Source: Asaia bogorensis
GTDB taxonomy: Bacteria > Pseudomonadota > Alphaproteobacteria > Acetobacterales > Acetobacteraceae
Direction of reading: 5' to 3'
DNA length: 45,300 nt
Assembly (NCBI GenBank): GCA_945888575.1
Contig: CAMDAM010000002.1
Span: 1-45,300 of the forward strand
The translations under genes and the position numbers were made by a program. How positions within the stretch are numbered: the stretch's first letter is position 1; each line of letters starts with the position of its first letter. Positions 29,518 through 45,300 of the stretch are shown in pieces. Below the pieces are notes generated by a model. The model had not been told where the DNA came from. It did no database searches and saw only the letters and a list, made by a program, of their open reading frames with translations.

Positions 29518-30203
29518 CACGGCGCACCGCCGCCCTCGCCCTGGCCGCCATGCTTGCCGCCACTCCCGCAGCGGCACAGCAACCGGACGGCTGGCTGGAC
29601 CGCTTCAACCGCCAGATATTCGACCTGAACGAGCACCTCTCCAACGGCGTCGACGCCCTGCGCCAATCCCTGCCGGATGGCTTCGCGGTGCCCGATTGGC
29701 TCTCCACCGGCGCCGGCAACATGCTCTCCAACACGGTCAATGAACCGATCACCGCGCTCAGCCACGCCCTGTCCGGCGATTTCGGGCTGGCCGGCAGCTC
29801 CCTGCGCCGCTTCGGCACCAACTTCACCCTCGGCATCCTCGGCACGCGCGACGTGGCCACCGAGATGGGCATGGAGGTGCCGCGCAACGATATCGGCCTC
29901 GCCCTGTGCCGCCACGGCGTGCCGGAGGGGCCCTACGTGGTGCTGCCCATCGTCGGCCCGCGCACGATGCGCGACGCCATCGCCGACCTCGTCGTCACCA
30001 ACGCCATCATCTACGTGGCACTCATCCCGGTCTTCGGGCCGGTACCTGGGCTCATGACCATCCTGGTCATCGAGGCGCTGGACGAAGCCGCCGCCCTGGC
30101 CATCGCCCGCCAGATCGATTCCGCGCACGAGCGCGGCGGCACCTACGACGAAGTGCGCGAACGCTACGTGGCCGGGCGCGCCCTGCGCTGCGGCGGCGCC
30201 TAG
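29514..30203 (+). CDS. MlaA/VacJ family protein without a lipobox
   Basis: This 229-residue protein has family landmarks WLDRFNRQIFDLNEHL, NFTLGILGTRDVATEMG and GPYVVLPIVGPRTMRDAI. MlaA normally sits in the outer membrane as a lipoprotein and removes phospholipid from the outer leaflet. Here the signal peptide (MTRRTAALALAAMLAATPAAAQ) ends in an ordinary AAAQ cleavage site with no Cys, so the product should be soluble periplasmic or held by its own helices. No mlaBCDEF genes are near. It is the last gene of the coupled set and starts within the preceding stop. It may have been recruited to a different envelope role. Confidence 0.82.
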   Translation: MTRRTAALALAAMLAATPAAAQQPDGWLDRFNRQIFDLNEHLSNGVDALRQSLPDGFAVPDWLSTGAGNMLSNTVNEPITALSHALSGDFGLAGSSLRRFGTNFTLGILGTRDVATEMGMEVPRNDIGLALCRHGVPEGPYVVLPIVGPRTMRDAIADLVVTNAIIYVALIPVFGPVPGLMTILVIEALDEAAALAIARQIDSAHERGGTYDEVRERYVAGRALRCGGA

Positions 30204-30274
30204 TGGCGCGCGGGAATGCCCATGCGGGCCGGAGTTCCGGCACCCCGCACCGATCAGCAGAAGGACCGAGGTCT

Positions 30275-31378: not shown

Positions 31379-31390
31379 ACCCCGTCCCCT

Positions 31391-31416
31391 CCCGCCCGGC
31401 ATCCGTGCCGGGCGGG
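31391..31416 (+). terminator. Strong GC hairpin after the AapJ-like gene
   Basis: CCCGCCCGGCA and TGCCGGGCGGG form a perfect 11-bp stem with a TCCG loop, 12 bases after the stop. Only TCCTGCCT follows rather than a clean T-run. It may act as a terminator or as a 3'-stabilising hairpin. Confidence 0.6.
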
Positions 31417-31463
31417 TCCTGCCTCCATCACCGGCCGGGCACCCAGCCCGCGGAAGGTCCGCG

Positions 31464-32183
31464 ATGACCGACATCCTCGAACACGTGCAGACCCGGCCCC
31501 ATGAAGCCGGCGCAGATGCCGCCTTCCGCCCCAGCGAATACACCGGCTTCCTGATCCACGCCGTGCAGGCCGCCACCGCCGGCCGCCCGCTGGGCCGGGT
31601 GGTAGAAATCGGCGTCGGCTCCGGCGCCGTGCTCGCCAGCCTGGCCAATCGCGGCGCCACCAGCCTCACCGGCACCGATGTCGATCCCGGCGCGATCCTT
31701 GCCACCCAGCGCCTGATGGACAGCCTGGGCCAGCCCGTCGAGCTGGCCTGCGGCGACCTCTGGGCCCCGCTCGCCGGCCGCCGCTTCGATCTCGTGCTGG
31801 CCAACCCGCCGCACTTCCCCATGCTCACCCCGGGCTATGCCGGCCGCCCGCCGCAATGGAGCTTCGGCGGGCCGGATGGGCGCCTGGTGATGGACCAGCT
31901 GCTGCGCGGCCTGCCGAAGCATCTCGCCAAGGATGGCCGCGCCTATGTGGTGCACAGCGCCTTCCTCGGCCTGGCCGCCACCCACCGCCTGCTGGCCGAG
32001 CGCGGCCTCGCCGCCCGCATCGTCGCCTCCAGCCTCATGCCGCTCGCACCCGAAAAGCTGCCGGTGATGGCCCCCGCCGTGCTGCACGGCGCCGGGCCAG
32101 AGGCGATCCAGCGCATCGGCCCGCACACCTTCCTGCGCACCGACGTGCTGGAAATCGCCGCCGCCACTCCCGGAGGCGCCTAG
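31464..32183 (+). CDS. Class I SAM-dependent methyltransferase (MTS-type)
   Basis: This 239-residue cytoplasmic protein has motif I VVEIGVGSGAVLASL (46-60), an acidic strand GTDVDPGAI and the substrate-side motif NPPHFP (114-119). NPPx motifs of this kind occur in methyltransferases that modify amide or exocyclic amine nitrogens (PrmC- or RsmC-like). The target is not readable. The GGAAGG ribosome binding site is well placed. Its stop is 4 bases before the next gene, so it is probably co-transcribed with the amino-acid transporter fusion. A functional link to uptake is not obvious. Confidence 0.83.
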   Translation: MTDILEHVQTRPHEAGADAAFRPSEYTGFLIHAVQAATAGRPLGRVVEIGVGSGAVLASLANRGATSLTGTDVDPGAILATQRLMDSLGQPVELACGDLWAPLAGRRFDLVLANPPHFPMLTPGYAGRPPQWSFGGPDGRLVMDQLLRGLPKHLAKDGRAYVVHSAFLGLAATHRLLAERGLAARIVASSLMPLAPEKLPVMAPAVLHGAGPEAIQRIGPHTFLRTDVLEIAAATPGGA

Positions 32184-32187
32184 CCCC

Positions 32188-33825
32188 ATGCGCCACCTCC
32201 TCGCCCTCCTCCTCCTCCTCGCCGGCCTCACATCCCCCGCCCGCGCCGACAGCACCGCGGCGCTCCAGGCCGTGCTGGACCAGGCCCGCGCCCGCGCCAC
32301 CGCCGAAGGCTGCCAAGCCCTCCCGCGCGAAAGCCTCGCCGCCATCCTCTGCAACGGCCACATCCGCATCGGCGTGCGCGGCAACTACCCCAATTTCGGC
32401 ATCGCCGACGGCCTGGGCGCAGATACGCGCCGTTCCGGGTTCGAGATCGAGGTGGCCCACGCCATCGCCGCACACCTCGGCGTGGAAGCGCGCCTCGTCA
32501 CCGTCACGCCCGCCAACCGCATCGCCAACCTGGTCGAACGCCGGGTCGATCTCGTCATCGCCACCATGGGCCACACCCTGCAGCGCGACGAGCAGGTGCG
32601 CTTCATCCGCCCGCACTACTACCAGTCCACCACCGTCGTGGTCGGAGACCGCCGCATCCCCGCCCGCAACTGGGAGCAGATGGCCGGCCGCACCGTCTGC
32701 GTGCCGCTCGGCAATGCCGACACGCTGCACCTGGTGCAGCACGGCGTGCGCCTGCTGATCTTCGACAGCCCGCAACAGCTGGTCGATGCGCTGAAGCGCG
32801 AGATCTGCTCGCTGGCGATGCACGACGACAGCTTCTTCAGCGACAGCTTCGCCGACCCCGCCTTCGCCGCCAGGTTCGAACAGAAGCTTGCCGTCTCCGC
32901 CCTGCCCTGGGGCATGGCCACGCCGCCCGGCAGCGACCTCGCCGCCTTCCTCGATGGGCTCAGCGCCCAGTGGCACGCCGAAGGCCGCTTCCTCCAGGCC
33001 GCAACCGGCTTCCCGATCGCGCGCGGCTTCCTGGAGGAGCAGCGAACCCTGTGGTCCAGCCCGGCCTGCACCGCCACCGGCGCCACCCCCGCCCCCGGCT
33101 GCCTCGGCAAGCCGTCAGACACCACCCTGCCCCCCACCAGCTTCGCCCCGGATGTGGACCGGTTCGAATCCTGGCTGCGCGATACGCTCGGCATTGCCAT
33201 CACCCTGCCCATGCTGAAAACCGAAGTGGCGTTCGAGGCCTTCGTGCGCGGCATCGTCTTCTCGCTGGTGCTGGTGGTCGGCTCCATCTTCTCCACCCTG
33301 GGGCTGGCCATGCTCTTCGCCAGCGCGCTCTGCGCCCGCCCCGCCGCCGCCCGCATCGCCGCCCGCATGGCCACCGGCGTGCTGCAATGCTCGCCGCTCG
33401 TGCTGCTGCTGTTCTTCGGCTACATGGTCGCCAGCACCCTGGTGCCCTATTCCGCCCCCGTGGCGCTCGTGATCGCCGTGGTGATGATCGGCCTCTACAA
33501 CGGCAGCTCCGCCGCCCAGGCGATCGGCGAATTCCACGCCACCCAGCGCCGCACCTCCAGCACCTGGCCGCCCCTGCGCGGCGCCATCCAGGGGGCCGCG
33601 GTGCAGATCATGTCCTTCCTGGTCAACGCCACGAAATCCAGCGCGGTCGCCAGCATGGTCGGCGTGCCGGAGCTGCTGAACGAACTCACCGACATCACCT
33701 CCTTCACCAGCGAGCGGATCATGACCTACTCGTTCCTGCTCGTCTTCTACACGCTGCTGGTCAGCCTCGTGGTCTCACTGATGCGCTCGCTCCAGGGCGT
33801 CTTCGAACGGAGGGCCGTGGCATGA
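32188..33825 (+). CDS. Polar amino acid ABC protein: binding domain fused to permease
   Basis: This 545-residue protein has a signal peptide (1-20, ending SPARA) and a family 3 binding domain (about 58-290, with HIRIGVRGNYPNFGIAD, GFEIEVAHAIAAHLGVE, RRVDLVIATMGHTLQRDEQV). A linker follows, then a His/Glu-type permease domain (about 345-540) with several membrane helices and SFLVNATKSSAVASMVGVPEL, which resembles the coupling region. Fusions of binding protein to permease are known in glutamine/glutamate-type transporters. The partner permease begins within its stop codon. No ATPase is encoded nearby, so one must be supplied from elsewhere or the system is incomplete. Confidence 0.87.
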   Translation: MRHLLALLLLLAGLTSPARADSTAALQAVLDQARARATAEGCQALPRESLAAILCNGHIRIGVRGNYPNFGIADGLGADTRRSGFEIEVAHAIAAHLGVEARLVTVTPANRIANLVERRVDLVIATMGHTLQRDEQVRFIRPHYYQSTTVVVGDRRIPARNWEQMAGRTVCVPLGNADTLHLVQHGVRLLIFDSPQQLVDALKREICSLAMHDDSFFSDSFADPAFAARFEQKLAVSALPWGMATPPGSDLAAFLDGLSAQWHAEGRFLQAATGFPIARGFLEEQRTLWSSPACTATGATPAPGCLGKPSDTTLPPTSFAPDVDRFESWLRDTLGIAITLPMLKTEVAFEAFVRGIVFSLVLVVGSIFSTLGLAMLFASALCARPAAARIAARMATGVLQCSPLVLLLFFGYMVASTLVPYSAPVALVIAVVMIGLYNGSSAAQAIGEFHATQRRTSSTWPPLRGAIQGAAVQIMSFLVNATKSSAVASMVGVPELLNELTDITSFTSERIMTYSFLLVFYTLLVSLVVSLMRSLQGVFERRAVA

Positions 33826-34439
33826 TCGAAATCCTGCCCGGCTTCCTGCCGGTCTTCCTCGCCGGCCTCGTGGTCAACCTCGAAATCGCCGCCGCCTCGC
33901 TGGTCCTCGGCCTCGCCCTCGGCCTGCCGCTGGCGGCCTCACTCGGCGCCGGCCGGGCGCTTTCCGCCCCCGCCGGCAGCCTCGTCGGCCTGCTGCGCGC
34001 CGCCCCCAGCTTCGTGGTGATGTTCTTCCTGCTCAACATCCTGCCGCGCGAAATACAGATCGCCGGCCATGACATCCAAACCGGCCTGCTCGCCGTCATC
34101 CTGGCCAATGCCGCCTACGCCGTGGCCTACATCGCCGACAATGGCCTGGTGGCGCTGCGGGCGATGCGCGCCGGCAACATGGCCGCCGCCGTGCTGTTCC
34201 TGCCCAACGTCACCCGCGCCTTCTTCGTGCTCACCCTGGCCTCGTCCATGGCCGCCGCAGTCGGCACGCCAGAAGCGATCTTCGTCACCCTGCGCCAGGC
34301 CGAACGCCTCCCGGCCCTGTCGGACCAGATCCTGCTGTTCGCCTTCGTCATGCTGTTCTTCGGCGCCGTCCTGCAAACGGTCTTCGCCGTCATCAACGCG
34401 GTGCGCGCCGCGATCCTGCATCGGCTGGCGCCTGCCTAA
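33822..34439 (+). CDS. Polar amino acid ABC transporter permease
   Basis: This 205-residue inner-membrane permease of the His/Glu/Gln/Arg family starts within the stop of the binding-permease fusion. LPVFLAGLVVNLEIAAASLVLGLALG opens the protein; residues LLRAAPSFVVMFFLLNILP and AYIADNGLVALRAMRAGNMAAAVLFLPN follow. The family coupling motif is weak. It should pair with the permease half of the preceding fusion. A composite palindromic element starts 8 bases after its stop and separates it from the convergent ndk gene. Confidence 0.85.
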   Translation: MIEILPGFLPVFLAGLVVNLEIAAASLVLGLALGLPLAASLGAGRALSAPAGSLVGLLRAAPSFVVMFFLLNILPREIQIAGHDIQTGLLAVILANAAYAVAYIADNGLVALRAMRAGNMAAAVLFLPNVTRAFFVLTLASSMAAAVGTPEAIFVTLRQAERLPALSDQILLFAFVMLFFGAVLQTVFAVINAVRAAILHRLAPA

Positions 34440-34447
34440 GCAAGCGC

Positions 34448-34571
34448 CTTCTTTTTCTGAAGAAAAAGAAGCAAAAAGACTTTTATGAATTGATGCGGAG
34501 AGGCCGGGCCTCTCCGCATCAAACGAACGAAAGTTTTTTGGTTCTTTTTTTCAAAAAAGAACCGCTTCCTT
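34448..34571 (+). repeat. Composite palindromic element, copy B
   Basis: Left hairpin CTTCTTTTTCT/AGAAAAAGAAG (34448-34471, 2-base loop) is perfect over 11 bp. The central stem TTGATGCGGAGAGGC/GCCTCTCCGCATCAA (34490-34504 with 34508-34522, CGG loop) is perfect over 15 bp. Right hairpin GGTTCTTTTTT/AAAAAAGAACC (34540-34563) is perfect over 11 bp. The A-tract before and T-tract after the central stem also pair. It exactly fills the gap between two convergent genes, fitting a two-way terminator. Both flanks match copies A and C; the central stem sequence does not. Confidence 0.9.
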
Positions 34572-34573
34572 CC

Positions 34574-34996
34574 TCAGCCGACGATCTCGCAGCCCGAGAA
34601 GAAATAAGCGATCTCAATCGCCGCATTCTCCGTGCTGTCCGACCCATGCGCCGAGTTCGCCTCGATGCTCTCGGCGAATTCCTTGCGGATCGTCCCGGGC
34701 GCCGCGTTGGCCGGGTTCGTCGCACCCATCACTTCGCGGTACTTCGCCACGGCGTTGTCGCCTTCCAGCACCTGCACCACCACGGGGCCGGAGGTCATGA
34801 ACGTCACCAGCTCGCGGAAGAAGCCGCGCTCGCTGTGCACGCCGTAGAACGTCTCGGCCTGCGCGGTGGTCATGTGGATGCGCTTCTGCGCCACGATGCG
34901 CAGGCCCGAAGCCTCGATCTTGGCGTTGATCGCGCCGGTCAGGTTGCGCCGCGTCGCGTCGGGCTTGAGGATGGAAAAAGTGCGTTCAGTGGCCAT
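34574..34996 (-). CDS. ndk: Nucleoside diphosphate kinase
   Basis: This 140-residue enzyme transfers the gamma phosphate between NTPs and NDPs through a phosphohistidine. [15 protein letters not shown] (4-18), [27 protein letters not shown] and ANSAHGSDS with catalytic His117 are all present. The length is standard for bacterial Ndk. ATG 34996 is preferred over the longer open frame because the conserved [13 protein letters not shown] start is exact. It converges with the amino acid permease gene across palindromic element B and is divergent from the ABC-F gene. Confidence 0.97.
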
Positions 34997-35105
34997 GGAA
35001 CTGGACCCTTCATGAGGACTCGTGATCGGGCGGGGCTTTAGAGCAGCCACCGCACAGCGGCAACCCCTTCCCCCTGCGCAGCCGGGCGGCTACATCCCCC
35101 ACATC

Positions 35106-36971
35106 ATGAGCCTCCTGATCGCACGCGGCGTCGTCATCCGGCTCGGGGGTCGCACCCTGCTGGACAATGCCGACCTCACCATCGACCCCGGCCGCCATGT
35201 CGGCCTGGTCGGGCGCAACGGCGCCGGCAAGTCCACCCTGCTGCGCGCCATCTCCGGCGAGCTGGCCATCGACGACGGCGACATCCGCCTCGCCCAGCGC
35301 GCCAAGCTCGGCCAGGTCAAGCAGGAAACCCCTGAGGGCCCGAAATCCCTCGTCGACATCGTGCTGGAAGGCGACCCCGAACGCCTCTCCCTGCTGGCGG
35401 AGGCCGAAACCGCGCCGCCGGAGCGCCTGGCCGAAATCCACGACCGCCTGCAGGCGATCGACGCCGACAGCGCCCCCGCCCGCGCCGCCACCATCCTCGC
35501 TGGCCTCGGCTTCGACATGGCGGCACAGGCCCGCCCGGTCAGCAGCTTCTCCGGCGGCTGGCGCATGCGCGTCTCGCTCGCCACGGCCCTGTTCAGCGCG
35601 CCCGACCTGCTGCTGCTCGATGAGCCCACCAACCACCTGGATCTCGAAGCCACCCTCTGGCTCGAAACCTGGCTGCAGAAATTCCCCGGTGCCGCCATCG
35701 TCGTCAGCCACGACCGCGGCCTGCTGGATCGCTGCGTGGACAGCATCGCGCACCTGGACCGCGGCAAGATCAACGTCACCCCCGGCGGCTACGACGAGTT
35801 CGTGCGCATCCGCACCGAGCGCGCGGCCCAACAGGCCGCCGCCGCCGCCAAGATCGCCACGCAGAAGGCCCACATGCAGGCCTATGTCGATCGCTTCCGC
35901 TACAAGGCCAGCAAGGCCCGCCAGGCGCAAAGCCGCCTCAAGGCCATCGCCCGCCTGCCGGTGATCGACAGCGTGCTGGAAGACCACGTCACCCGCTTCA
36001 ACTTCCCGGAGCCGGCAGCCCTCGCCCCCCCCATCCTCACCATGGACCGCGTCTCCGTCGGCTATGGCGGCGCGCCCATCCTGCGCGGCCTCAGCCTGCG
36101 CGTGGACCAGGAAGACCGCATCGCGCTGCTCGGCGCCAACGGCAACGGCAAGTCCACCCTGGCCAAGCTGATCGCCGGCAAGCTGGAGCCCGATAGCGGC
36201 ACCATGCACCGCTCCGGCAAGCTGCGCGTCGGCTACTTCGCCCAGCACCAATCGGATGAGCTGATCCCCAACGAAACCCCGATCGACCACATGCAGCGCG
36301 CCCTGCCCCGCGCCCTGCCCGCCCAGGTCCGCAGCCAGCTCGCCCGCTTCGGCCTGGATGCCGACCGCGCCACCACCCCGGTGAAGAACTGCTCCGGCGG
36401 CGAAAAGGCCCGCCTGCTCCTGGCCCTCGCCACCCGCGACGCCCCGCAGCTCCTGCTGCTCGATGAGCCCACCAACCACCTCGACATCGACGCCCGCGAG
36501 GCCCTGGTGCGCGCGCTCGCCGATTTCGAGGGCGCCGTGATGCTCATCACCCACGACCCCCACCTGGTGGACCTGGTGGCAGACACGCTCTGGCTCGTCG
36601 CCGACGGCACGGTAAAACCCTTCGACGGCGACCTGGACGACTATCGCGCTTTGCTCACCGAACGCGCCCGCCCCGCGCCGCGCGCCGATGCCGGCAACCA
36701 GCGCGACGAACGCCGCGCCCGAGCCGATGCCCGCGCCGCCACCGCTCCCCTGCGCAAGGCCGCGAAAGACGCCGAAGCCCGCACCGCCCGCCTCACCACC
36801 GAGATCAGGAAGATCGAAGCCAAGCTCGCCAGCCCCGATCTCTACACCCCCGCCCGCAAGGGCGAGGTCGCTGCCGCCCAATCCACCCTGGCCGCCCTCA
36901 AACGCCAGCTCCAGGCCGCCGAAGCAGAATGGCTCGCCGCCGAGGAAGCCCTGGAAGCGGCCAGCGCGTGA
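35106..36971 (+). CDS. ABC-F family ATPase
   Basis: This 621-residue cytoplasmic protein has two ABC modules and no membrane domain. Module one has Walker A GRNGAGKST (36-44), SFSGGWRMRVSLATAL, LLLDEPTNHLD and SHDRGLLD. An arginine/lysine-rich linker with KASKARQAQSRLKAI follows. Module two has GANGNGKST (near 343), CSGGEKARL and LLLDEPTNHLDID. The C-terminal region is a charged coiled coil (RKAAKDAEARTARLTTEIRK). ABC-F proteins act on ribosomes, as translation factors or antibiotic protection, and this one looks like the Uup/YheS-type housekeeping lineage. The start follows ndk's divergent promoter region by about 109 bases. Confidence 0.94.
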   Translation: MSLLIARGVVIRLGGRTLLDNADLTIDPGRHVGLVGRNGAGKSTLLRAISGELAIDDGDIRLAQRAKLGQVKQETPEGPKSLVDIVLEGDPERLSLLAEAETAPPERLAEIHDRLQAIDADSAPARAATILAGLGFDMAAQARPVSSFSGGWRMRVSLATALFSAPDLLLLDEPTNHLDLEATLWLETWLQKFPGAAIVVSHDRGLLDRCVDSIAHLDRGKINVTPGGYDEFVRIRTERAAQQAAAAAKIATQKAHMQAYVDRFRYKASKARQAQSRLKAIARLPVIDSVLEDHVTRFNFPEPAALAPPILTMDRVSVGYGGAPILRGLSLRVDQEDRIALLGANGNGKSTLAKLIAGKLEPDSGTMHRSGKLRVGYFAQHQSDELIPNETPIDHMQRALPRALPAQVRSQLARFGLDADRATTPVKNCSGGEKARLLLALATRDAPQLLLLDEPTNHLDIDAREALVRALADFEGAVMLITHDPHLVDLVADTLWLVADGTVKPFDGDLDDYRALLTERARPAPRADAGNQRDERRARADARAATAPLRKAAKDAEARTARLTTEIRKIEAKLASPDLYTPARKGEVAAAQSTLAALKRQLQAAEAEWLAAEEALEAASA

Positions 36972-37093
36972 ACACCGTAACGCCCGGCACCTTCCTGCGC
37001 GGCCGTTAACCGCACCTTCACCTCCCTCGAGCAGGCTTGCGGCGACGGCGCCGGCAATCGGCGATTCTTCGAACCAGAGGAAAGCCCAAGACG

Positions 37094-38527
37094 ATGGCAG
37101 TCAGCGTCACGTACAGCGGGAGCACCATCGCCGAGTCCAACGGCACCCAGGCCGCCTACCAGGACAGCATCAATTCCAGCAGCCGGTTCGTCATCACCTT
37201 CTCCGACGGAACCCAGATCGCCATCTCGAACTACGACGACCAGGATTCAACCAGGGATATGGTGATCGGTGTCCCCACGCCCTCGGCGGGGAACGACAGG
37301 GTCAATCTCGATCTCTACTATATCGGCAACAACGCCACCTTCACGATCTTCGACTACAACTTTGGCAACCTCGGCGCGTCGCTCTACACCTTCAATGGCG
37401 GCAACAACTCCGAAGCCCTGATCCAGATCACCTACAACAACTTCACCCGGCAGCTGCAGGTCGATACCAGCTTCACCGGCTCCACAAGCGGCGACTACAG
37501 TGGAGGCGGCAGCGCCATCAACAGCGACGGCACCTTCGCCAGCTTCTCCGGCAGCACCGCACTCTCCACCACCATCTGCTACCTCGCCGGCACCCGTATC
37601 CTCACCGATCGCGGCCTCGTCGCGGTCGAATCCCTCCACCCCGGAGACCGCGTCGCCACCCGCTTCGGCGGCCTGCGCCCGGTGCGCTGGATCGGCACCC
37701 AAACCCTGCTCGCCCTCGGCGCCCGCGGCATGCTCGCCCCCGTCTGCATCCGCCCCGGCGCCCTGGGCGAGAACCAGCCGGCCCAAGACCTCTGGGTCAG
37801 CCCCGGCCACGCCGTCCTGCTCGGCGAGCACCTCGTCTGCGCCTACCTCCTGGTCAACGGCACCACCATCGTCCAGCCCGCCCATAGCGGGGAGATCCGC
37901 TACTTCCACCTCGACCTCGGCGACCACGATTGCGTCCTCGCCGAAGGCGCCTGGGCCGAAAGCTACTACGAGCACCTCAACCGGGAAGCGTTCGACAACG
38001 CCGCCGAGTACCAGGCCCAGTTCCCCGCAGCCGCCCCGCACATCCAGCCCACCTGCCTGCCCTACGTGAACCAGCCCGGCCACCCCGCCCTGCCCGCCCT
38101 GCGCGCCCTCATCGCCGCCCGCGCCCCGCAGCCCGCCATCCCCCATCTCCTCGCCGATGGCGCCGTCATCCTCCCCGATCCCGCCAGCCCAGCCGGCACC
38201 TGGCGCTTCACCCTGCCCGAAGCCGCCACCACCCTGCGCCTGCGCTCCTCCGCCGCCACCCCAGCGGAAGCCTTCGCCCGCGCCGATACCCGCCGCCTCG
38301 GCCTGCGCCTTCGCGCCGTCACGCTCGAACATGCCGGCACCACCACGGCACTGGACCTCGCCGCCCCCAGCCTGTGCGAAGGCTGGCACCAGCCGGAAGA
38401 CACCAACGGCACGCTGTGGCGCTGGACCAACGGCGACGCCGCCCTGCCCCTGTCCGGCCCCGGCACCCTCACCATCCACGGCTACGCCCTGCTCGAAGCC
38501 CCCCAGCCCGCCCGCGCCGCCGCCTGA
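37094..38527 (+). CDS. Hint (Hedgehog/intein) domain protein
   Basis: This 477-residue protein is tripartite. Residues 1-160 are rich in Ser, Thr, Asn and Gly with repeated beta-type segments (FVITFSDGTQIAI, ATFTIFDYNFGNLGASLYTF), have lower GC than the neighbouring genes and look like a secreted or surface module without a Sec signal. A Hint domain begins at Cys162 (CYLAGTRILTDRGLVAVESL) with PGDRVATR and SPGHAVLL (His239) and ends near DHDCVLAEG. A C-terminal 170-residue region follows. Hint domains self-cleave at their N-terminal Cys, so the first part may be released or esterified. Secretion, perhaps type I, is inferred. Confidence 0.87.
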   Translation: MAVSVTYSGSTIAESNGTQAAYQDSINSSSRFVITFSDGTQIAISNYDDQDSTRDMVIGVPTPSAGNDRVNLDLYYIGNNATFTIFDYNFGNLGASLYTFNGGNNSEALIQITYNNFTRQLQVDTSFTGSTSGDYSGGGSAINSDGTFASFSGSTALSTTICYLAGTRILTDRGLVAVESLHPGDRVATRFGGLRPVRWIGTQTLLALGARGMLAPVCIRPGALGENQPAQDLWVSPGHAVLLGEHLVCAYLLVNGTTIVQPAHSGEIRYFHLDLGDHDCVLAEGAWAESYYEHLNREAFDNAAEYQAQFPAAAPHIQPTCLPYVNQPGHPALPALRALIAARAPQPAIPHLLADGAVILPDPASPAGTWRFTLPEAATTLRLRSSAATPAEAFARADTRRLGLRLRAVTLEHAGTTTALDLAAPSLCEGWHQPEDTNGTLWRWTNGDAALPLSGPGTLTIHGYALLEAPQPARAAA

Positions 38528-38598
38528 CCCGCCCGGCGGTTGCACCACCGCCGGCACCCCGCTACAGCCCTGCGGCCCCCAAACAGCCGCAGCCCCTC

Positions 38599-39102
38599 AT
38601 GCCCATCCCCGCCGCCCTCGCCGAAGCCCTCGCCGCCCTCGGCCTCGCCCCCACCTGCCATGAGCACCCCCCGCTCGCCACGGTGGAGGATGCCCACGCC
38701 ATCTGGGACAAACTCCCCGGCGCCCAGGTGAAGAACCTCTTCATCAAGGATGCAGGCAAGCAGCACTGGCTCGTCGTCGTCCCCGGCGATCCGCGCATGG
38801 ACACCAAGGCGATGGTCCCGCTGATCGGCAGCAAGCGCATCTCCTTCGCCTCGGCGGATGACCTGCGCAGCATCCTCGGCGTCGAACCCGGCTCCGTCAC
38901 CCCGCTCGCCATGATGAACGACCGCAACCACCAGGTCCGACTCGTCATCCACGCCAAGCTGATGCAGGCGGAAACCCTGCTCGTCCACCCGCTGGTCAAC
39001 ACCGCCACGCTGGCAATGCCGCCGGCCGACCTGCTCCGCTTCCTCGCCCACCACGGCGTCACCCCCGCCCTGGTGGACCTGGAGCCCGCCTTCCTGGCCT
39101 AA
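38599..39102 (+). CDS. YbaK/ProX-type aminoacyl-tRNA deacylase (PrdX-like)
   Basis: This 167-residue protein has CHEHPPLATVEDA near the start, then GAQVKNLFIKD with the family Lys45, KRISFASADDLRSILGVEPG, SVTPLAMMND and HPLVNTATLAM. It hydrolyses mischarged tRNA, classically Ala-tRNAPro, in trans to prolyl-tRNA synthetase. The length is typical of stand-alone PrdX. Its stop TAA shares one base with the ATG of the deacetylase gene (TAATG), so the two are coupled. Confidence 0.92.
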   Translation: MPIPAALAEALAALGLAPTCHEHPPLATVEDAHAIWDKLPGAQVKNLFIKDAGKQHWLVVVPGDPRMDTKAMVPLIGSKRISFASADDLRSILGVEPGSVTPLAMMNDRNHQVRLVIHAKLMQAETLLVHPLVNTATLAMPPADLLRFLAHHGVTPALVDLEPAFLA

Positions 39103-40145
39103 TGCCGGCCATGCAGGTCCTCCACTCCCCCCTCCAGCGCCGCCACCACGTCCGCAACTTCATGCGCCACGGCCGCTTCGTCGAAGGCCGCGACACCCCG
39201 CGCCGCGCCGACAACGTCCTGGCCGCCCTGCTGGCGGACGGCCACGTGGCCAGCGAAGCCCCCTGGCACGGCATGGCCCCCATCGCCGCCATCCACACTC
39301 CGGAATACCTCCGCTTTCTCGAAACCGCCTGGGCCGAGTGGCGCAAGATCCCCACCGCCGGCGAGGAAGTGTACCCCTACGTCTTCCCCGTCCGCGGCAT
39401 GCAGCACGGCTACCCGAAATCCGTCATCGGCCAGGCCGGCTACCACATGCACGACCTCTGGGTGCCACTCGGCGAACACAGCTTCCAGGTCGCCGTCGCC
39501 TCCGCCAACCTCGCCGTCGAAGCCGCCGAGCGCGTCCTGGCCGGCGCCCCGATGGCCTACGCGCTCTGCCGCCCCTCCGGCCACCACGCCTACACCGACA
39601 TGGGCGGCGGCCAGTGCTTCCTCAACAACGCCGCCATCGCCGCCCAGCATTTGCGCCGCGCGCTCGGCCGCATCGCGGTTGTGGATTTCGATGTCCACCA
39701 CGGCAACGGCACCCAGGGCATCTTCTACGCCCGCAACGACGTCCTCTTCGTCTCGATCCACCGCGACCCCACGGACTACCACCCCTTCTTCACCGGCTAC
39801 GCCAACGAACGCGGCGAGGGCGCCGGCCTCGGCTACAACCTCAACCTCCCGCTCGCCGCCCATTCAGGCGATCCCGTGGTGCTCGATGCGCTAGAGGAAG
39901 CCTGCACCCGCATCGCCGCCTACAGCCCAGACGCCCTCGTGGTCTCCCTCGGCGTCGACGGCCACGAAGACGACCCGACAGACGGCCTGAAGATCACCCA
40001 CGAAGGCTTCCGCCGCATCGGCGCCCGCCTGCGCGCCCTCGGCCTGCCCACCGTCCTGGTCCAGGAAGGCGGCTACAACGTGGAAACGATCGGCACCTGC
40101 GTCGCCAGCGCCGTGGCGGGCTTCGACGGGCGGGAGAGCCTCTAG
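39102..40145 (+). CDS. Histone deacetylase / acetylpolyamine amidohydrolase family
   Basis: This 347-residue zinc hydrolase has the catalytic histidine pair in RPSGHHAY (161-162). Zinc ligands Asp197 and His199 lie in DFDVHHGNG, with Asp286 in LGVDGHEDDP and Tyr325 in GGYN. SIHRDPTDYHPFFTGYANERG and the N-terminal HSPLQRRHHVRNF segment resemble acetylpolyamine amidohydrolases more than class I or II deacetylases. It likely removes acetyl groups from polyamines or other small amines. It is coupled to the tRNA deacylase gene and converges on LysR, one base apart. The ATG at 39111 is an alternative start. Confidence 0.9.
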   Translation: MPAMQVLHSPLQRRHHVRNFMRHGRFVEGRDTPRRADNVLAALLADGHVASEAPWHGMAPIAAIHTPEYLRFLETAWAEWRKIPTAGEEVYPYVFPVRGMQHGYPKSVIGQAGYHMHDLWVPLGEHSFQVAVASANLAVEAAERVLAGAPMAYALCRPSGHHAYTDMGGGQCFLNNAAIAAQHLRRALGRIAVVDFDVHHGNGTQGIFYARNDVLFVSIHRDPTDYHPFFTGYANERGEGAGLGYNLNLPLAAHSGDPVVLDALEEACTRIAAYSPDALVVSLGVDGHEDDPTDGLKITHEGFRRIGARLRALGLPTVLVQEGGYNVETIGTCVASAVAGFDGRESL

Positions 40146-40146
40146 C

Positions 40147-41073
40147 CTACGCCACCCGATCCATCCGCCGCATCTCGCCGCGGAACGTATCCGTGATGTG
40201 CCGCGCCAGCACATCCGTCACCGGCTGCTGCGCATCCCGCCCGCGCGCCATCCGGATGCCAAAATCCGGCAGATCCGGCAGCCCTTCCTCCCGCCGCACC
40301 ACCCGCAGCCCCTCCGGCACCCAGGAGATGGTGGAAACCGTCACCGCCAGCCCCGCCATCACCGGCGCATGCGTCCCCATCTGCGAAGCCGAGGTATAGG
40401 CCACCCGATACCGCCGCCCCGCCGCCTCCAGCGCCTCCACCGCCGCCTTCCCCCACGAACAACTCGTCCGCGCCAACGCCAGCGGCAGCGGATCCAGCCG
40501 ATGCGGCGAATACCGCTCCGAGGTGATCCAGCGCAGCTTCCCCCGCCACAGCTCGATGGAAGGCCAGGCCCCGATCTCCTCGCCCTCCGACAGCAGCGAA
40601 AGATCCAGCTCCCCCGCCCGCAGCTTCGGCAGCAACTCCACCGACGGCAGGCACTCCACCGCCACCTCAATCCCCGGATGCGTGTCCGCGAAGCTCTTCA
40701 GCACCGGCGGCAGATACCGCAGCGCATAATCATCCGGCGACCCCAGCCGCACCCGCCCCTGCACCACCGGCGTGCGGAAACTCGCCCAGATCTGGTCGTT
40801 CAGCGCCAGCAGCTCGCGCGCCCGCTCCAGCAGCATCGCCCCGTGCTGCGTCAGCCCAACCTGGCCCCCCCGCCCGCGATCCAGCAACCGACGCCCCAGC
40901 ATCGCCTCCAGCCGCTGCATCTGCATGGAAACCGCCGACTGCGTCCGCCCCACCCGCTCCCCGGCGCGCGAGAAACTCCCCTCCTCCGCGATCAGCACAA
41001 AGCTGCGCAGCAAATCGGGGTCCAACCCCTGCGGCAGGGGGCCATTCGTCAGCGTGGGGGAGGGCATGCTCAT
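40147..41073 (-). CDS. LysR-family transcriptional regulator
   Basis: This regulator of about 308 residues has the N-terminal winged helix LDPDLLRSFVLIAEEGSFSRA followed by QSAVSMQMQRLEAMLGRRLLDR, then a co-inducer domain (GRVRLGSPDDYALRYLPPVLKSF onward). The order and the LGSPDDYA motif recall LrhA-type members. ATG 41073 is chosen because the helix starts soon after; ATG 41100 or TTG 41103 would add ten or eleven residues. It is transcribed divergently from the DUF1127 gene, a usual arrangement for a LysR target. The target and inducer are unknown. Confidence 0.9.
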   Translation of the reverse strand: MSMPSPTLTNGPLPQGLDPDLLRSFVLIAEEGSFSRAGERVGRTQSAVSMQMQRLEAMLGRRLLDRGRGGQVGLTQHGAMLLERARELLALNDQIWASFRTPVVQGRVRLGSPDDYALRYLPPVLKSFADTHPGIEVAVECLPSVELLPKLRAGELDLSLLSEGEEIGAWPSIELWRGKLRWITSERYSPHRLDPLPLALARTSCSWGKAAVEALEAAGRRYRVAYTSASQMGTHAPVMAGLAVTVSTISWVPEGLRVVRREEGLPDLPDFGIRMARGRDAQQPVTDVLARHITDTFRGEMRRMDRVA

Positions 41074-41099
41074 GGCATCATAATTCCTGATACTATCCA

Positions 41100-41113
41100 T
41101 CAACGCAATTCGT
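41100..41113 (-). promoter_or_regulatory. Second copy of the 14-base motif
   Basis: On the minus strand this reads ACGAATTGCGTTGA, identical to 2665-2678 in front of the peptide ABC operon. It lies in the region between the LysR and DUF1127 genes. If LysR binds it, autoregulation and control of the ABC operon would be linked; this is speculation. Confidence 0.25.
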
Positions 41114-41178
41114 TTCCTTCATGCCGCAGGTGCGAAGATACTCCGGCCGTCGACACCACCCATGGAAGGACCCCTGCC

Positions 41179-41418
41179 ATGTCGGCCCATCTCTCCCCCG
41201 CCCCGATCGCCCGCGGCCTCGTCCTCTCCGGCCCGCACTTCGTCCTGGTCGCCCGCCTCGCCTGGCGCCGCTTCCGCCGCGCCTACGCCCTGGCCCTGCG
41301 CGACGAAGTCTCTCGCCGCAACCTGCGCCGGATGGACGACCACATGCTCAGCGACATCGGCGTCAGCCGCGCCCAGGCCCAGTTCGAGGCCAATCGCAAG
41401 CCGTGGCATTACATCTAG
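41179..41418 (+). CDS. DUF1127 family small protein
   Basis: This 79-residue protein has a mid hydrophobic part (GPHFVLVARLAWRRFRRAYALALRD) and the DUF1127 C-terminal motif NLRRMDDHMLSDIGVSRAQ. DUF1127 proteins are small, arginine-rich and often stress- or nutrient-induced in alphaproteobacteria; some bind RNA. A GGAAGGA ribosome binding site lies just upstream. The gene is divergent from LysR. Palindromic element C starts 16 bases after the stop. Confidence 0.85.
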   Translation: MSAHLSPAPIARGLVLSGPHFVLVARLAWRRFRRAYALALRDEVSRRNLRRMDDHMLSDIGVSRAQAQFEANRKPWHYI

Positions 41419-41434
41419 GACATAAGAAAGCGTT

Positions 41435-41560
41435 CTTCTTTTTCTGAAGAAAAAGAAGGAAAAAGACTTTTCTGACTTGCACGCGTGCCAGGACACCCGG
41501 CACGCGTGCAAGCGGATAAAAGTTTTTGGTTCTTTTTTTCAAAAAAGAACCCCTTCCTTC
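41435..41560 (+). repeat. Composite palindromic element, copy C
   Basis: Left hairpin CTTCTTTTTCT/AGAAAAAGAAG (41435-41458) and right hairpin GGTTCTTTTTT/AAAAAAGAACC (41528-41551) are identical to those in copy B. The central stem CTTGCACGCGTGCC/GGCACGCGTGCAAG (41476-41489 with 41499-41512, 9-base loop) is perfect over 14 bp but differs in sequence from copy B. A CTTCCTTCC box ends the element, as in copy B. It lies between the DUF1127 gene and the dioxygenase gene, which are co-directional. Confidence 0.9.
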
Positions 41561-41614
41561 CCTCCCCCGCGCCCCCCCGCTACACTCCCCCACAACAAGC
41601 GGGAGTGAACCGAG

Positions 41615-42502
41615 ATGCCCGAGATCCTCACCCAGGCGCAGATCGACGAATACAACGAAGTCGGCGCCATCGTCGTCCACAACGTCCTCTCGCCGCAGGA
41701 AGTCCAGCGCCTGCGCCGCGTCACGGATGAGATGGTGGAAAAATCCCGCCCCATCACCACCCACACCGATATCTACGACCTCGAAGACACCCACTCCCAA
41801 GCCCAGCCCCGCGTGCGCCGCATCAAGCAGCCGCACATCGTCGACCCGGCCTATGGCGACCTCGTCCGCCACCCCCGCATCCTCGCCGCCCTGCGCGACC
41901 TCTGGGGCCCCGACATCCGCTTCGACACCGCCAAGCTGAACCTGAAATCCGCAGGCTACGGCGCGGCCGTCGAATGGCACCAGGACTGGGCCTTCTACCC
42001 CCACACCAACGACGACCTCGCCGCCGTCGGCATCATGATGGACGACATGGAGCTGGCCAACGGCCCCCTCATGATCATCCCCGGCAGCCACAAGGGCCCG
42101 GTCCACGACCACCACTTCGAAGGCAAGTTCTGCGGCGCCATGGACCCCACCAAGGGCGGCGTGGACTACACCAAGGCCCTGCCCCTCACCGGCCCCGCCG
42201 GCAGCATCACCATCCACCACGTCCGCGCCATCCACGGCAGCGCCGTCAACACGTCGAACAAGGACCGCCGCCTGCTGCTGTTCCAATTCCGCGCGGCAGA
42301 CGCCTGGCCCATCGTCAACCCGGTAAAAGACCTCGCCGAGTTCGACAGCCTGATGTGCTGCGGCACCCCCGGCATCACCCCGCGCCTCACCCCCGTCCCC
42401 GTCCGCATGCCCCTGCCGGGTGCAGATAAGCAAGGCAGCATCTACGAAAACCAGAAGGGCCTGAAAAACCGCTTTTTCGACGTGGTGAAGGCCGCGGAGT
42501 AG
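41615..42502 (+). CDS. Phytanoyl-CoA dioxygenase family protein
   Basis: This 295-residue Fe(II)/2-oxoglutarate-dependent oxygenase has metal ligands in the HxD motif of EWHQDWAFY (His122, Asp124) and in IHGSAVN (His207). The 2-oxoglutarate-binding arginine is probably Arg218 or Arg219. IIPGSHKGP supplies the typical loop. Members hydroxylate varied substrates, from fatty acyl-CoA to osmolytes and secondary metabolites; the substrate is not predictable. GGGAG lies 9 bases before the ATG. It follows palindromic element C, so it probably has its own promoter. Confidence 0.9.
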   Translation: MPEILTQAQIDEYNEVGAIVVHNVLSPQEVQRLRRVTDEMVEKSRPITTHTDIYDLEDTHSQAQPRVRRIKQPHIVDPAYGDLVRHPRILAALRDLWGPDIRFDTAKLNLKSAGYGAAVEWHQDWAFYPHTNDDLAAVGIMMDDMELANGPLMIIPGSHKGPVHDHHFEGKFCGAMDPTKGGVDYTKALPLTGPAGSITIHHVRAIHGSAVNTSNKDRRLLLFQFRAADAWPIVNPVKDLAEFDSLMCCGTPGITPRLTPVPVRMPLPGADKQGSIYENQKGLKNRFFDVVKAAE

Positions 42503-42523
42503 CCCGCCGCCGTCACATTCTCG

Positions 42524-42556
42524 CAAGCAGGGCCAGGCAACAGCCTGCCTTGCTTG
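42524..42556 (+). terminator. Imperfect hairpin after the dioxygenase gene
   Basis: CAAGCAGGGCCAGGC can pair with GCCTGCCTTGCTTG across an AACA loop with one bulge and one mismatch. It lies 21 bases after the stop and lacks a strong T-run (TCGCCGG follows). A terminator is likely but unproven. Confidence 0.45.
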
Positions 42557-42583
42557 TCGCCGGATCAGTTGCTCTTCTAAAAT
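42554..42583 (+). promoter_or_regulatory. Sigma-70 type promoter candidate
   Basis: TTGTCG (42554-42559), an 18-base spacer and TAAAAT (42578-42583) give a reasonable -35/-10 pair. Transcription would start near 42590. It precedes the four-helix membrane protein gene. Confidence 0.4.
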
Positions 42584-42586
42584 AAC

Positions 42587-42609
42587 CGCTCCTCGCAACA
42601 GCAGGAGCG
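42587..42609 (+). promoter_or_regulatory. Hairpin that hides the ribosome binding site
   Basis: CGCTCCT (42587-42593) is complementary to AGGAGCG (42603-42609), with a 9-base loop. The right arm contains AGGAG, the ribosome binding site of the GTG at 42615. If the RNA starts before 42587 the site would be masked. The predicted start near 42590 would clip the left arm, so start-site choice might set translation. Confidence 0.4.
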
Positions 42610-42614
42610 CTCCG

Positions 42615-43961
42615 GTGAACCAGCCCGATATCGGCAAAAACGGTCCCGGCGCCCCCGCCGGCCATCTCCAGCCAGACATCAGCTACCTGCTATCCCTCAA
42701 GGCGGAGGTGCGCCTCCTCATCCGCACCGTCGCCGGCGATCCCGACAAATCGCTCTCCAAGATCGCAGTGGACTGGACAGACGCCGGCCAGTCCGTGCGC
42801 CTGGATTATGCCGCCATCGTCCAGGCCATCTCCCAGCCCGCACCGCCGGTCGAGATCGACCTGCTGACCCTCATCGGCAAGCTGCAGGTCATCCGCGACG
42901 AGCTGACCAACGCCGTCAAGCCCGCCACCGGCCTCAGCATCGCCTATACCGCCCTCGTCGCCGGCAACCAGCGCGGCACCGGCGCGCAATCCGCCTACGG
43001 CCTCGCCCAGGATGCCTTCGCCGGGCTCGCCGGGCCCGCCCGGCAGCACCGCGTGTCCATCATGCTGCTCAGCGTCCTGGCGATCATGCTCGCCTTCTTC
43101 GCCTCGTGGGAGGCCACGAAGGCCTCGCTCGGCAAAAGCCTCCTGCTCACGCTGGAACCGCTGCGCACCCAGCAGGCCGTCATCACCGCCGAGAAACTGA
43201 AACTCGAAATGCGGATCGATGCCGCGGCCGCCCTCGCCGCCGCCACCCCCACTGCCCCCCCCTCTGGCACCCCCTCTGGCACCCCCACTACCACGCCCAC
43301 CGCCACGCCCCACTCCGACCTGCACCTGCCGCTCTGCGAGCGCGACCGCCTGCTGGCTCTCAACTTCAAGCTCGCGCAAGACGAGCTGCGCCGCTTCAAC
43401 GAATCCTGGCCCGATGTCGTCGGCGGCCTGTTCAAGCCCGTGGCACGCTGGGCCGGCCATACGATGGCCTTCGCGGACTGGGCCATCACCCGGGTGCTTC
43501 CCATCCCCCCGTCCGAGTCCGCCGCCACCACCTGCACCGGCTGCGCCGAAGCGGCCCGGTCCGACGATATCGAATTCCGCATCGCGCCGATCATCCAGGT
43601 GATCGTCAGCTACATCCTGCCGTTCACGCTCGGGATCGTCGGCTCCCTGCTGTTCGTCCTGCTCGATCACTACACGCGCATGCGCGCCAACCTGCTGGTG
43701 CCGCGCGATCTCGCCCTGTCGCATCTGCGCGTCATCCTGGGCATCGTCGTGGCCGTCTGCATCAGCCTGCTCATCACCGGCTCCGTCGGCCCCGCCGCCC
43801 CCATCCAGCCATTGCCGACCGGCTCCGCCGCCCCCAGCACCCTGGTCGGCACCCTCACCCTCTCGGCAAGCCTGATCGCGTTCCTGGCCGGCTTCGGCGC
43901 CGAAGCCGTGTTCTCCCTGCTGCAAACACTGGTGCAACGGGTGTTCGCGCCGCCAAAGTGA
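42615..43961 (+). CDS. Hypothetical membrane protein with four membrane segments
   Basis: This 448-residue protein starts at GTG with AGGAG 7 bases upstream. Residues 1-145 are soluble and mainly helical. Membrane segments are near 146-165, 324-350, 371-390 and 408-430. Between the first two lies a coiled-coil-like part (EKLKLEMRIDAAAALAAA) and a Thr/Pro tandem repeat (GTPSGTPTTTPTATP, about 219-232). A CTGC cysteine pair lies at 307-310. No family is recognised. It converges on the GNAT genes, 7 bases apart. Confidence 0.7.
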   Translation: MNQPDIGKNGPGAPAGHLQPDISYLLSLKAEVRLLIRTVAGDPDKSLSKIAVDWTDAGQSVRLDYAAIVQAISQPAPPVEIDLLTLIGKLQVIRDELTNAVKPATGLSIAYTALVAGNQRGTGAQSAYGLAQDAFAGLAGPARQHRVSIMLLSVLAIMLAFFASWEATKASLGKSLLLTLEPLRTQQAVITAEKLKLEMRIDAAAALAAATPTAPPSGTPSGTPTTTPTATPHSDLHLPLCERDRLLALNFKLAQDELRRFNESWPDVVGGLFKPVARWAGHTMAFADWAITRVLPIPPSESAATTCTGCAEAARSDDIEFRIAPIIQVIVSYILPFTLGIVGSLLFVLLDHYTRMRANLLVPRDLALSHLRVILGIVVAVCISLLITGSVGPAAPIQPLPTGSAAPSTLVGTLTLSASLIAFLAGFGAEAVFSLLQTLVQRVFAPPK

Positions 43962-43968
43962 CCCTGGG

Positions 43969-44529
43969 CTATTCGCCCTTCCCCCACTCCCGCTCCAGCA
44001 GCCCATACACGCAGTCATCCCGCCACGCCCCACCCAGGAACAGCGTCTCCCGCAGCACCCCCTCCAGCCGGAACCCGAACCGCTCCACCATCCGGCGGGA
44101 GGCTACGTTCTCCGGGTCGATCACCGCCTGCACCCGGTGCAGCCGCGCCTCCCCGAAGCAATACCCCAGCAGCGCCCCCACCGCCTCGGTGGCCACGCCG
44201 CGCCCCCACCAGGCGGGCGCGATCATGTAGCCGATCTCCGCGCGGCGCTCGCCCATCTCGGCATTGTGGTAGTTCACCATGCCGATGCACCGGTCGCTCC
44301 CGGCCTCGGCCACCGCCCACACCAGCCGGCGCTTCGGCGTGAACGCCATGCACCGCCGCACCACCCGCTCCGTCTCGCTCCGCCGCCGATGCGCCGGCCG
44401 GTTCCAGAACCGCATGGCCTCGGCATCGCCGTAGCATTCATGCATGGCGTCCACGTCCTCCAGCCGAAACGGCCGCAGGCGCAACCGCGGCGTGGCAAGA
44501 GTCGGATGGGGCGCGGAAGCCTGGGACAT
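43969..44529 (-). CDS. GNAT family N-acetyltransferase
   Basis: This 186-residue protein of the RimJ/RimL-like type has LATPRLRLRPFRLEDVDAMHECY near the start. MVNYHNAEMGERRAEIGYMI is followed by the acetyl-CoA loop WWGRGVATEAVGALLGYCF and NVASRRMVERFGFRLEGVLRE. It likely acetylates an amino group on a protein N-terminus or a small molecule. ATG 44529 is chosen since the domain begins there. It is a tandem paralogue of the next gene and lies 17 bases after it in the transcript direction. Confidence 0.88.
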   Translation of the reverse strand: MSQASAPHPTLATPRLRLRPFRLEDVDAMHECYGDAEAMRFWNRPAHRRRSETERVVRRCMAFTPKRRLVWAVAEAGSDRCIGMVNYHNAEMGERRAEIGYMIAPAWWGRGVATEAVGALLGYCFGEARLHRVQAVIDPENVASRRMVERFGFRLEGVLRETLFLGGAWRDDCVYGLLEREWGKGE

Positions 44530-44546
44530 GGTGCTGGCAGTTCCTT

Positions 44547-45113
44547 CTACGCCTTGTCCAACCCAGCACCCCACTCCGGTGCCAACAGCCCATACAGCAC
44601 CGCATCCCGCCACGTTCCGCTCACCAGCTGGGCGTCCCGCAGCACCCCTTCGGCCCGGAACCCCAACCGCTCCACCAGCCTGCGGGAGGCGGCATTCTCC
44701 GGGTGGATCAGCGCCTGCAGCCGGTGCAGCCCCATCGTCCCGATGCAATGCCCGATCAGCGCCGAAACCGCCTCGCGCCCCACGCCCTGGCCCTGCCTGT
44801 CGCGCCGGATGATGTAGCCGATCTCAGCACTCCGGTGCCGCGCGCTGGCATTGTGGTAGTTCACCATCCCCACGCAGCCATCCGTCGCGCCGTCCGCCAC
44901 CGCCCACACCCGCCACCCAGCGGGCGCGGGGTCCATCGCCCAGCGCACCGCCCGCTCCGTCTCGTCCCGCGTGGCATTCGCCGGCCGGTCCCAGAACCGC
45001 ATCGCCTCCACGTCGCCGTAGCAGCCGTGGATCGCGTCCACGTCGTCGATCCGGAACGGCCGCAGAACCAGCCGTGCCGTCGCCAGAACCGGATGCGTCG
45101 CTGCGTCCTGCAC
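44547..45113 (-). CDS. GNAT family N-acetyltransferase, tandem paralogue
   Basis: This 188-residue protein starts at GTG 45113. The same domain order as its neighbour is clear: LATARLVLRPFRIDDVDAIHGCY, MVNYHNASARHRSAEIGYII, RQGQGVGREAVSALIGHCIG and NAASRRLVERLGFRAEGVLRD. The acetyl-CoA loop Q/RxxGxG/A is intact. Similarity along the whole length shows a local duplication; differences in the middle suggest separate substrates. It follows the cupin gene by 10 bases. Confidence 0.88.
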   Translation of the reverse strand: MQDAATHPVLATARLVLRPFRIDDVDAIHGCYGDVEAMRFWDRPANATRDETERAVRWAMDPAPAGWRVWAVADGATDGCVGMVNYHNASARHRSAEIGYIIRRDRQGQGVGREAVSALIGHCIGTMGLHRLQALIHPENAASRRLVERLGFRAEGVLRDAQLVSGTWRDAVLYGLLAPEWGAGLDKA

Positions 45114-45123
45114 CTCGGTGCGC

Positions 45124-45300
45124 CTAGCCGCGCCGATACTGGTCGTCGTCCACCTTCTCCATCCAGTCCACGCTCTTGCCGTCCAGCTTCTCCTGGATGG
45201 CGATATGGCTCATCCCCGTCGTCGCGGTCGCGCCATGCCAGTGCTTCTCTCCGGGCGGAAACCACACCACGTCGCCAGGCCGGATCTCCTCCACGGCGCC
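45124..45300 (-). CDS. Cupin domain protein, C-terminal part only
   Basis: The frame continues beyond the window edge; 58 residues are visible. [22 protein letters not shown] carries the cupin metal-binding histidines. The ending [19 protein letters not shown] then DDDQYRRG matches a group often annotated as (R)-mandelonitrile lyase-type or plain cupin proteins. Enzyme activity cannot be judged from this fragment. It is likely co-transcribed with the two GNAT genes. Confidence 0.85.

Follow-up and report, generated by a model that had tools for sequence, protein, structure and literature searches.

Dispersed extragenic palindromes with two unlike hairpin arms at gene 3' ends in the Acetobacteraceae: a putative two-way transcription terminator

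MITEs are non-coding elements that carry inverted terminal arms and are present at a site in some genomes and absent from it in others. Ordinary transcription terminators, in turn, are not copies of one another. Multiple kinds of repeated palindromes at gene ends have been described in bacteria. GTAG/CGTC-tagged REPs and BIMEs are short, high-copy extragenic palindromes that are found mostly between convergent and co-directed genes, near the coding ends (PMC3733652 and PMC2817692, in the parts available), and they have a Y1 transposase (RAYT) as their partner (PMC2817692). In the available text of PMC3733652, the ends of GTAG REPs often supply the TAG stop codon, and CGTC repeats are stated to be missing from the Acetobacteraceae. 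In addition, the accessible part of PMC1852404 describes bidirectional Rho-independent terminators, in which a hairpin has an A-run on one side and a T-run on the other, and uptake repeats of Neisseria and the Pasteurellaceae, which lie in inverted pairs at gene ends and form the terminator hairpin itself. The names Gluconobacter, Acetobacter and Rhodospirillum do not occur in the available portion of PMC2267715, and a full-text search with four arm sequences together with topic searches, among open-licence papers and at the level of titles and abstract openings, found no earlier description of the element reported here.

The window, a stretch of 45,300 nucleotides of Asaia bogorensis DNA, contains three copies of a composite palindrome, which direct sequence reading places where the initial annotation had put them, copy 1 being on the minus strand. 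In these copies, two arms that are AT-rich flank a variable core that is GC-rich (by eye). Copy 1 consists of arm A, with its hairpin and A/T run, at 7912-7943 (an exact match to the A-arm consensus), a core at 7944-7992 and arm B at 7993-8027 (two differences from the B-arm consensus). It lies between two plus-strand SBP_bac_5 genes, both recognized by domain match and gene call, at 6314-7888, whose stop faces the copy at 23 nt, and downstream at 8061-9638. Copy 2, on the plus strand, has arm B at 34448-34482 (exact), its core at 34483-34530 and arm A at 34531-34562 (exact). The stop of the upstream gene (33822-34439, plus strand, our own gene call, no identity assigned) is 8 nt away, and on the other side arm A is 11 nt from the stop of the convergent ndk gene for nucleoside diphosphate kinase (34574-35050, minus strand, PF00334; start at 34996 in our own gene call). 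Copy 3, also on the plus strand, has arm B at 41435-41469 (one difference), a core at 41470-41519 and arm A at 41520-41550 (one difference). It is preceded by a plus-strand DUF1127 gene (41179-41418 by our own gene call, with the domain found in the longer frame 40198-41418), whose stop is 16 nt from arm B, and followed by a PhyH-family gene (41615-42502, plus strand, PF05721).

The other properties ascribed to the three copies were largely borne out. The flanking hairpins are shared, with 0-2 differences from each arm consensus, and sequence reading gives perfect central stems of 10 (AATTTGCACG/CGTGCAAATT), 15 and 14 bp in copies 1, 2 and 3, with which the predicted folds agree. The copies are AT-rich islands, with GC contents of 0.34, 0.39 and 0.43 against 0.694 for the window. 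All six strand folds (three copies, two strands) have a folding energy 5.6 to 8.9 standard deviations under that of dinucleotide shuffles. RNA folding predicts three hairpins for copies 2 and 3 on their plus strands, and one long rod for copy 1 on either strand and for copy 2 on its minus strand. An Rfam search of the window at gathering scores gave no match.

The element is ordered as arm B, variable core and arm A. Read by eye from the outside in, most copies show AAGN repeats as a purine-rich end, then arm B (CTTCTTTTTCTGAAGAAAAAGAAG plus CAAAAAGACTT) and the core, and on the far side arm A in inverted order (AAAGTTTTTTGG plus TTCTTTTTTTCAAAAAAGAAC) and then CTTN repeats. The core measures 48-50 nt in the window copies and the whole element roughly 115-130 bp. 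Each arm is a small hairpin adjoining an A- or T-run, the T-run being TTTTTT in arm A and TCTTTTT in arm B. A GTAG/CGTC foot was not found by eye in the arm consensuses or in the element ends AAGNAAG and CTTNCTT, and there is no GTAG inside copy 2 (L004 1498-1612).

The two arms are terminal inverted repeats that agree at 31 of 36 aligned positions, and they are consistently unlike. With exact patterns, the nine congeneric genomes contain 663 B..A pairs and no B..B or A..A pair. Identical arms were found in none of 243 elements, in which the median arm identity is 0.86 (own, GTDB and viral loci, duplicates included); two B..B and two C..C elements were typed among 138 GTDB elements, yet the arms of these are not identical. 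Since own loci were collected in contig order from the first exact matches to an arm, and exact arm patterns likewise selected the loci from GTDB and from viral contigs, the absolute constancy of arms in these sets is biased upward, while the comparison of rates between orthologs is less affected. Elements from other genera of this family have their arm differences at other positions, and these leave each arm's own hairpin intact (seven elements recognized in 20 fetched loci), as in genome G026, where GCTTC..GAAG stands against GGTCC..GGAC. Minimal elements of this genome have two unlike arms around a core of only 9-10 nt (L312 1022-1097, L313 963-1039 and L314 959-1035). Two variants were also observed by eye: single B arms in L008, L027, L065, L067 and L074, followed by another repeat resembling CTTGCTTCTCCGTGCCTCTGTGTCTCTGTGG, and a family with a longer core of about 130 nt and GGATTTTTAGGAATACTCCCTCTCCATCC or close variants beside arm B (L279, L284, L295, L307 and L156 3747-3944).

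The three palindromes are members of a family of some hundreds of short gene-end elements. The genome-wide search for further copies that the initial annotation had proposed yields, at up to three mismatches in the 4.95-Mb genome, 213 forward and 214 reverse matches for the left hairpin and 230 and 224 for the right hairpin. The counts on the two strands are similar because the hairpins are near-palindromic and each copy matches on either strand; control patterns read backwards had no match in the genome. The right hairpin is present in 16 of 60 sampled genomes, the source genome included, and all 16 belong to one family: nine of nine congeneric genomes (167-341 forward matches each) and 7 of 27 others of the family, against none of 24 sampled from other families of the class. 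In a named scan, the matches listed (80 of at least 110 stretches) are from Gluconacetobacter, Nguyenibacter, Acidomonas, Roseomonas and Pseudoroseomonas, as well as from MAGs labelled Asaia and Rhodovastum and MAGs named to higher ranks. The genera named here belong to the Acetobacteraceae. With copy 2 as the query, 2 of 72,556 plasmid records and 1 of 50,697 phage records matched at the sensitivity used. Exact patterns find arm A in 29 stretches and arm B in 15 stretches of viral contigs, and 32 distinct full elements are present in such contigs. One Microviridae record with arm A is of a small ssDNA phage from cattle blood, which suggests a phage of a carrier bacterium.

Position relative to stop codons, another point raised for checking, proved informative: the elements sit at gene 3' ends. 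Genes were called with a codon model (long ORFs in viral contigs) instead of being taken from annotation, and gene context was absent for 4 of the 67 own elements and for 19 of the 138 from GTDB. By these calls, 88 intergenic gaps with an arm comprise 47 tandem, 40 convergent and one divergent gap, versus 41 tandem, 3 convergent and 18 divergent among 62 gaps of at least 40 bp without an arm (Fisher p 3e-7 for the divergent deficit and 1e-8 for the convergent excess in arm-holding gaps). The median distance from arm to gene 3' end is 8 nt (5-95% range 3-19; 94 ends of own elements). Among the GTDB loci, the 119 of 138 elements that could be placed are 39 convergent, 74 tandem and 6 divergent, and in an annotated plasmid an element lies between two convergent coding sequences, 4 and 8 nt from their ends. 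With arms counted when they lie between 12 nt inside the stop and 40 nt beyond it, TAA is the stop codon of 68 of 115 genes with an arm close behind, compared with 9 of 120 genes without (p 3e-18), which indicates that the element end often supplies the stop codon. The elements have no consistent orientation: in tandem gaps, the A end is beside the upstream gene in 17 of 27 cases here, 2 of 7 in congeners and 28 of 64 elsewhere.

Comparison of congeners shows that the elements come and go. Copy 1 is found in the source genome and G008 and is missing from seven other congeners. Copy 2 is found in G000, G001, G005 and G007 and not in G002, G003, G004 and G008 (G006 has no ndk match), and copy 3 in G000, G005, G007 and G008, while it is half-deleted in G001 and missing from G002, G003, G004 and G006. 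Congeners without an element have short junctions at the corresponding place. By eye, an element in G008 parts two genes that lie 2-7 nt apart in eight other genomes. Another in G002 parts genes that, in the three congeners compared, overlap; the upstream gene in G002 now stops at a TAA inside the element end (by eye). These sites, empty in relatives, point to insertion of the element. Clean target duplications were not seen by eye at the best empty sites, where the flanks are too diverged and at most short imperfect repeats occur. Several gene-end slots that lack the element in relatives are occupied by other palindromes (by eye). Behind ndk, G002 and G008 have a different palindromic repeat (CCAGGGGC...GCCCCTGG) replacing copy 2 (L095 1-172 and L096 1917-2307; by eye), and at a site where G008 has the element, the source genome, G001, G005 and G007 have a palindromic repeat of the CCAAGGCGCCAAGG type with AAGGAAACC-like ends (L267 4158-4276 and the matching stretches; by eye).

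At close orthologous sites (28 close pairs of 34), identity is 0.978 in arms, 0.932 in flanks and 0.803 in cores, so the mostly coding flanks differ more than the arms do and less than the cores. Of the contrast first drawn between fixed flanks and a changing centre, the near-constancy of the flanking hairpins stands, and it is this constancy of the arms, not the centre, that is striking. Core identity between G008 and G000, G005 or G007 is 0.50-0.56. At the copy 1 site, G008 has an unrelated core (0.50); the copy 2 core is 0.86-0.96 identical in G001, G005 and G007, and for the copy 3 core identity is 0.81 in G005, 0.85 in G007 and 0.56 in G008. An independent insertion is not needed to explain a different core, as shared sites have differing cores and like arms.

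The initial annotation had described a perfectly paired centre in all three copies and had taken the paired changes to imply selection on structure; this interpretation holds in part. Pairing is above chance: matched core halves fold at -22.1 kcal/mol on average versus -13.0 when crossed between copies, and they beat at least 90% of 30 crossed partners in 61% of elements and fewer than half in 10% (70 of 74 distinct elements entered this test, 20 of the 74 being probably reversed). A core hairpin under -8 kcal/mol is predicted on 92% of strands, with a median of -22 (67 own elements). Perfect stems are not general, as the longest has a median of 7 bp and three cores of G026 measure 9-10 nt, but stems of at least 8 bp occur in 43% of the 70 cores against 0.8% of shuffled cores. 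Substitutions between orthologs broke 80 pairs versus 124.6 (sd 6.4) under random placement. The stem covariation that was to be counted came out as follows: two-sided core changes number 22 against 13.4 expected (sd 3.2; reached in 3 of 500 replicates), whereas one-sided changes that keep the pair number 22 against 36.9, fewer than expected (30 usable of 34 ortholog pairs, which share sites and are not independent). Sense-strand polarity, a possible proof of RNA function, is negative: the 111 tandem-context elements have 52 G.U pairs versus 57.5 A.C mismatches, no excess, in a comparison by our own criterion and with no positive control. Convergent elements (n = 100) have 74 and 55, respectively (p 0.11). 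Selection on the central stem is therefore supported in part, and the paired changes do not imply it.

The core pairing is real, and it may perhaps be maintained at the DNA level. That G.U is not commoner than A.C is as expected in that case, for example with quasipalindrome template switching. It comes close to an even chance that the paired changes are produced by such switching at replication, in which one half of the core is copied from the other, rather than by selection on the fold, an explanation that covers the core only and is compatible with the other readings. Both the missing strand polarity among core mismatches and the excess of two-sided over one-sided pair-keeping changes fit it. 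Template switching should also equalize the outer arms, yet exact homotypic arm pairs number 0 against 663, and so something opposes it at least there.

For the element as a whole, we tentatively favour, at somewhat under an even chance, a dispersed, insertion-derived, REP-like family of extragenic palindromes at gene 3' ends that acts as a putative two-way transcription terminator. RNA polymerase arriving from either side would read through the near arm and then the core hairpin before stopping in the T-run of the far arm; the U-run made there could cap the 3' end by pairing with the near arm's A-run. The core would need pairing and no set sequence, and could thus drift, helped by template switching, while T-runs and arm hairpins would stay. 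A long perfect palindrome is unstable DNA. Identical arms would give one, with a single long rod in place of the small hairpins, and the arms would therefore be kept unlike.

Two-way termination is favoured by the placement, the two T-runs, the absence of a consistent orientation and one phage case; the core hairpins predicted on most strands, the plasmid element between convergent coding sequences and the other palindromes in element-free gene-end slots of relatives count on the same side. In this phage case, the Microviridae record MG945182.1 (marked unverified; L274 1140-1236), arm A alone immediately follows a strong GC-rich hairpin, on the same strand as the three annotated features around it. 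Among 22 distinct single viral arms with an upstream ORF, 16 are read into the T-run and 6 are not (p 0.05), or 13 versus 5 (p 0.10) without the arms of long-core pairs, a weak lean in the same direction that is not significant. Several results count against the terminator reading. One is that G.U does not outnumber A.C on the sense strand, and another is a consensus terminator scan of 30001-45300, which did not call copies 2 and 3 and called 4 sites elsewhere versus 7.2 expected from shuffles; core hairpin and T-run are both present in the element, with an AT-rich lower stem between them. Also, the 9-10-nt cores of three G026 elements are too short for a GC-rich hairpin, and half-elements keep the stop-side arm more often than the far arm (12 versus 4 of 24 here, 9 versus 2 of 19 elsewhere). 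In tandem gaps, where only the far T-run would be needed, a test for decay of the other arm gave no consistent difference: arm errors are 0.09 beside the stop versus 0.31 far from it here, and 0.42 versus 0.13 elsewhere.

Another explanation, which we consider possible but rather unlikely, is a selfish MITE- or REP-like element with no function for the cell. The unlike arms would then be left and right ends for a trans-acting transposition protein, and gene ends would be low-harm or targeted sites. Several observations are consistent with this: the element is present or absent at sites whose flanks are recognized on either side; it lies between genes that almost touch, or overlap, in the relatives examined; its arms are unlike throughout, as expected of a left and a right end; and the direction of transcription leaves no sign of a weaker constraint on one of the arms. 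It would predict that idle copies decay in their arms, yet the arms differ less than the mostly coding flanks, and a clean target duplication was not seen. A recent burst of copies is not supported either, as the 62 own cores compared (of more than 200 copies) are at most 0.86 alike. A mobilizing gene was not found in a search that used PF01797 (Y1 transposase) alone: there are no matches in G000, G002, G003, G004, G006 and G008 and one each in G001, G005 and G007, with no arm in those three loci. A Y1/RAYT mover is thus rejected for the source genome, which has no PF01797 match.

Unpaired arms also bracket longer stretches, of 0.45-0.77 kb in L006, L016, L187/L155 and L216 and of 130 bp in L156; among fetched loci, pairs up to 3 kb apart are facing in six cases and back-to-back in one. 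The stretch in L016 holds a DUF4345 gene, and that of 603 bp in L187 2948-3618 and L155 744-1414 a gene that looks GNAT-like by eye; two convergent genes enclose this stretch, and their stops lie a few nt from the adjoining arms. Between the arms of L006 687-1524 and L216 3309-4130 are related orphan proteins of 121 and 142 aa (40% over 80 aa) with no Pfam or NCBIfam match. The idea that these genes are cargo was dropped, as, given a decayed arm inside L006 and the likeness of L006 and L216 behind the orphan gene (both by eye), the arms may be chance half-elements.

It is improbable that the arms are sites for DNA-binding or nucleoid proteins through which the element insulates neighbouring genes at the DNA level: arms that are 98% alike where flanks are 93%, with no side preference, would suit such sites, but the arm changes in other genera keep hairpin pairing (seven elements), which points to structure as much as sequence. 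Very improbable indeed are DNA-uptake or other genome tags settled in terminators, as in Neisseria and the Pasteurellaceae; hundreds of similar gene-end copies have this precedent in PMC1852404, but the uptake signals in the available part of that source are about 9-11 nt long and generally number at least 1,000 copies, whereas here a long composite unit has roughly 170-340 arm matches per congeneric genome.

The two-way terminator reading can be carried further, to a non-RAYT class of mobile gene-end element in the Acetobacteraceae and their phages: a portable two-way terminator with its own stop codons, obligatorily unlike hairpin ends and a hypermutable core. In this full form we regard the proposal as doubtful. 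If the two-way terminator reading is true, a GC-rich bacterial family would end many transcription units in both directions with one dispersed element, which would be a test bed for the RAYT-free spread of repetitive extragenic palindromes and for the reason why the two arms of a near-palindrome stay different. The arms also offer themselves as simple candidates for compact terminators that work both ways.

Among the described systems, REPs and BIMEs are similar in having many copies between convergent and co-directed genes and a stop codon supplied by the element end; the present elements differ in their three-part build, with two unlike AT-rich hairpin arms. With bidirectional Rho-independent terminators they share a hairpin with an A-run and a T-run, which suits convergent genes, but unlike ordinary terminators, their T-run arms recur in hundreds and a second hairpin lies outside the T-run. 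As in uptake-sequence terminators, a repeated sequence occurs in inverted pairs at gene ends, although here a variable stem lies between the repeated arms, which in no case were found as an exact inverted pair. As in MITEs, the elements are non-coding, have inverted terminal arms and show presence and absence; in contrast to MITEs, no partner transposon or clear target duplication was found for them, and their interior is not common to the copies.
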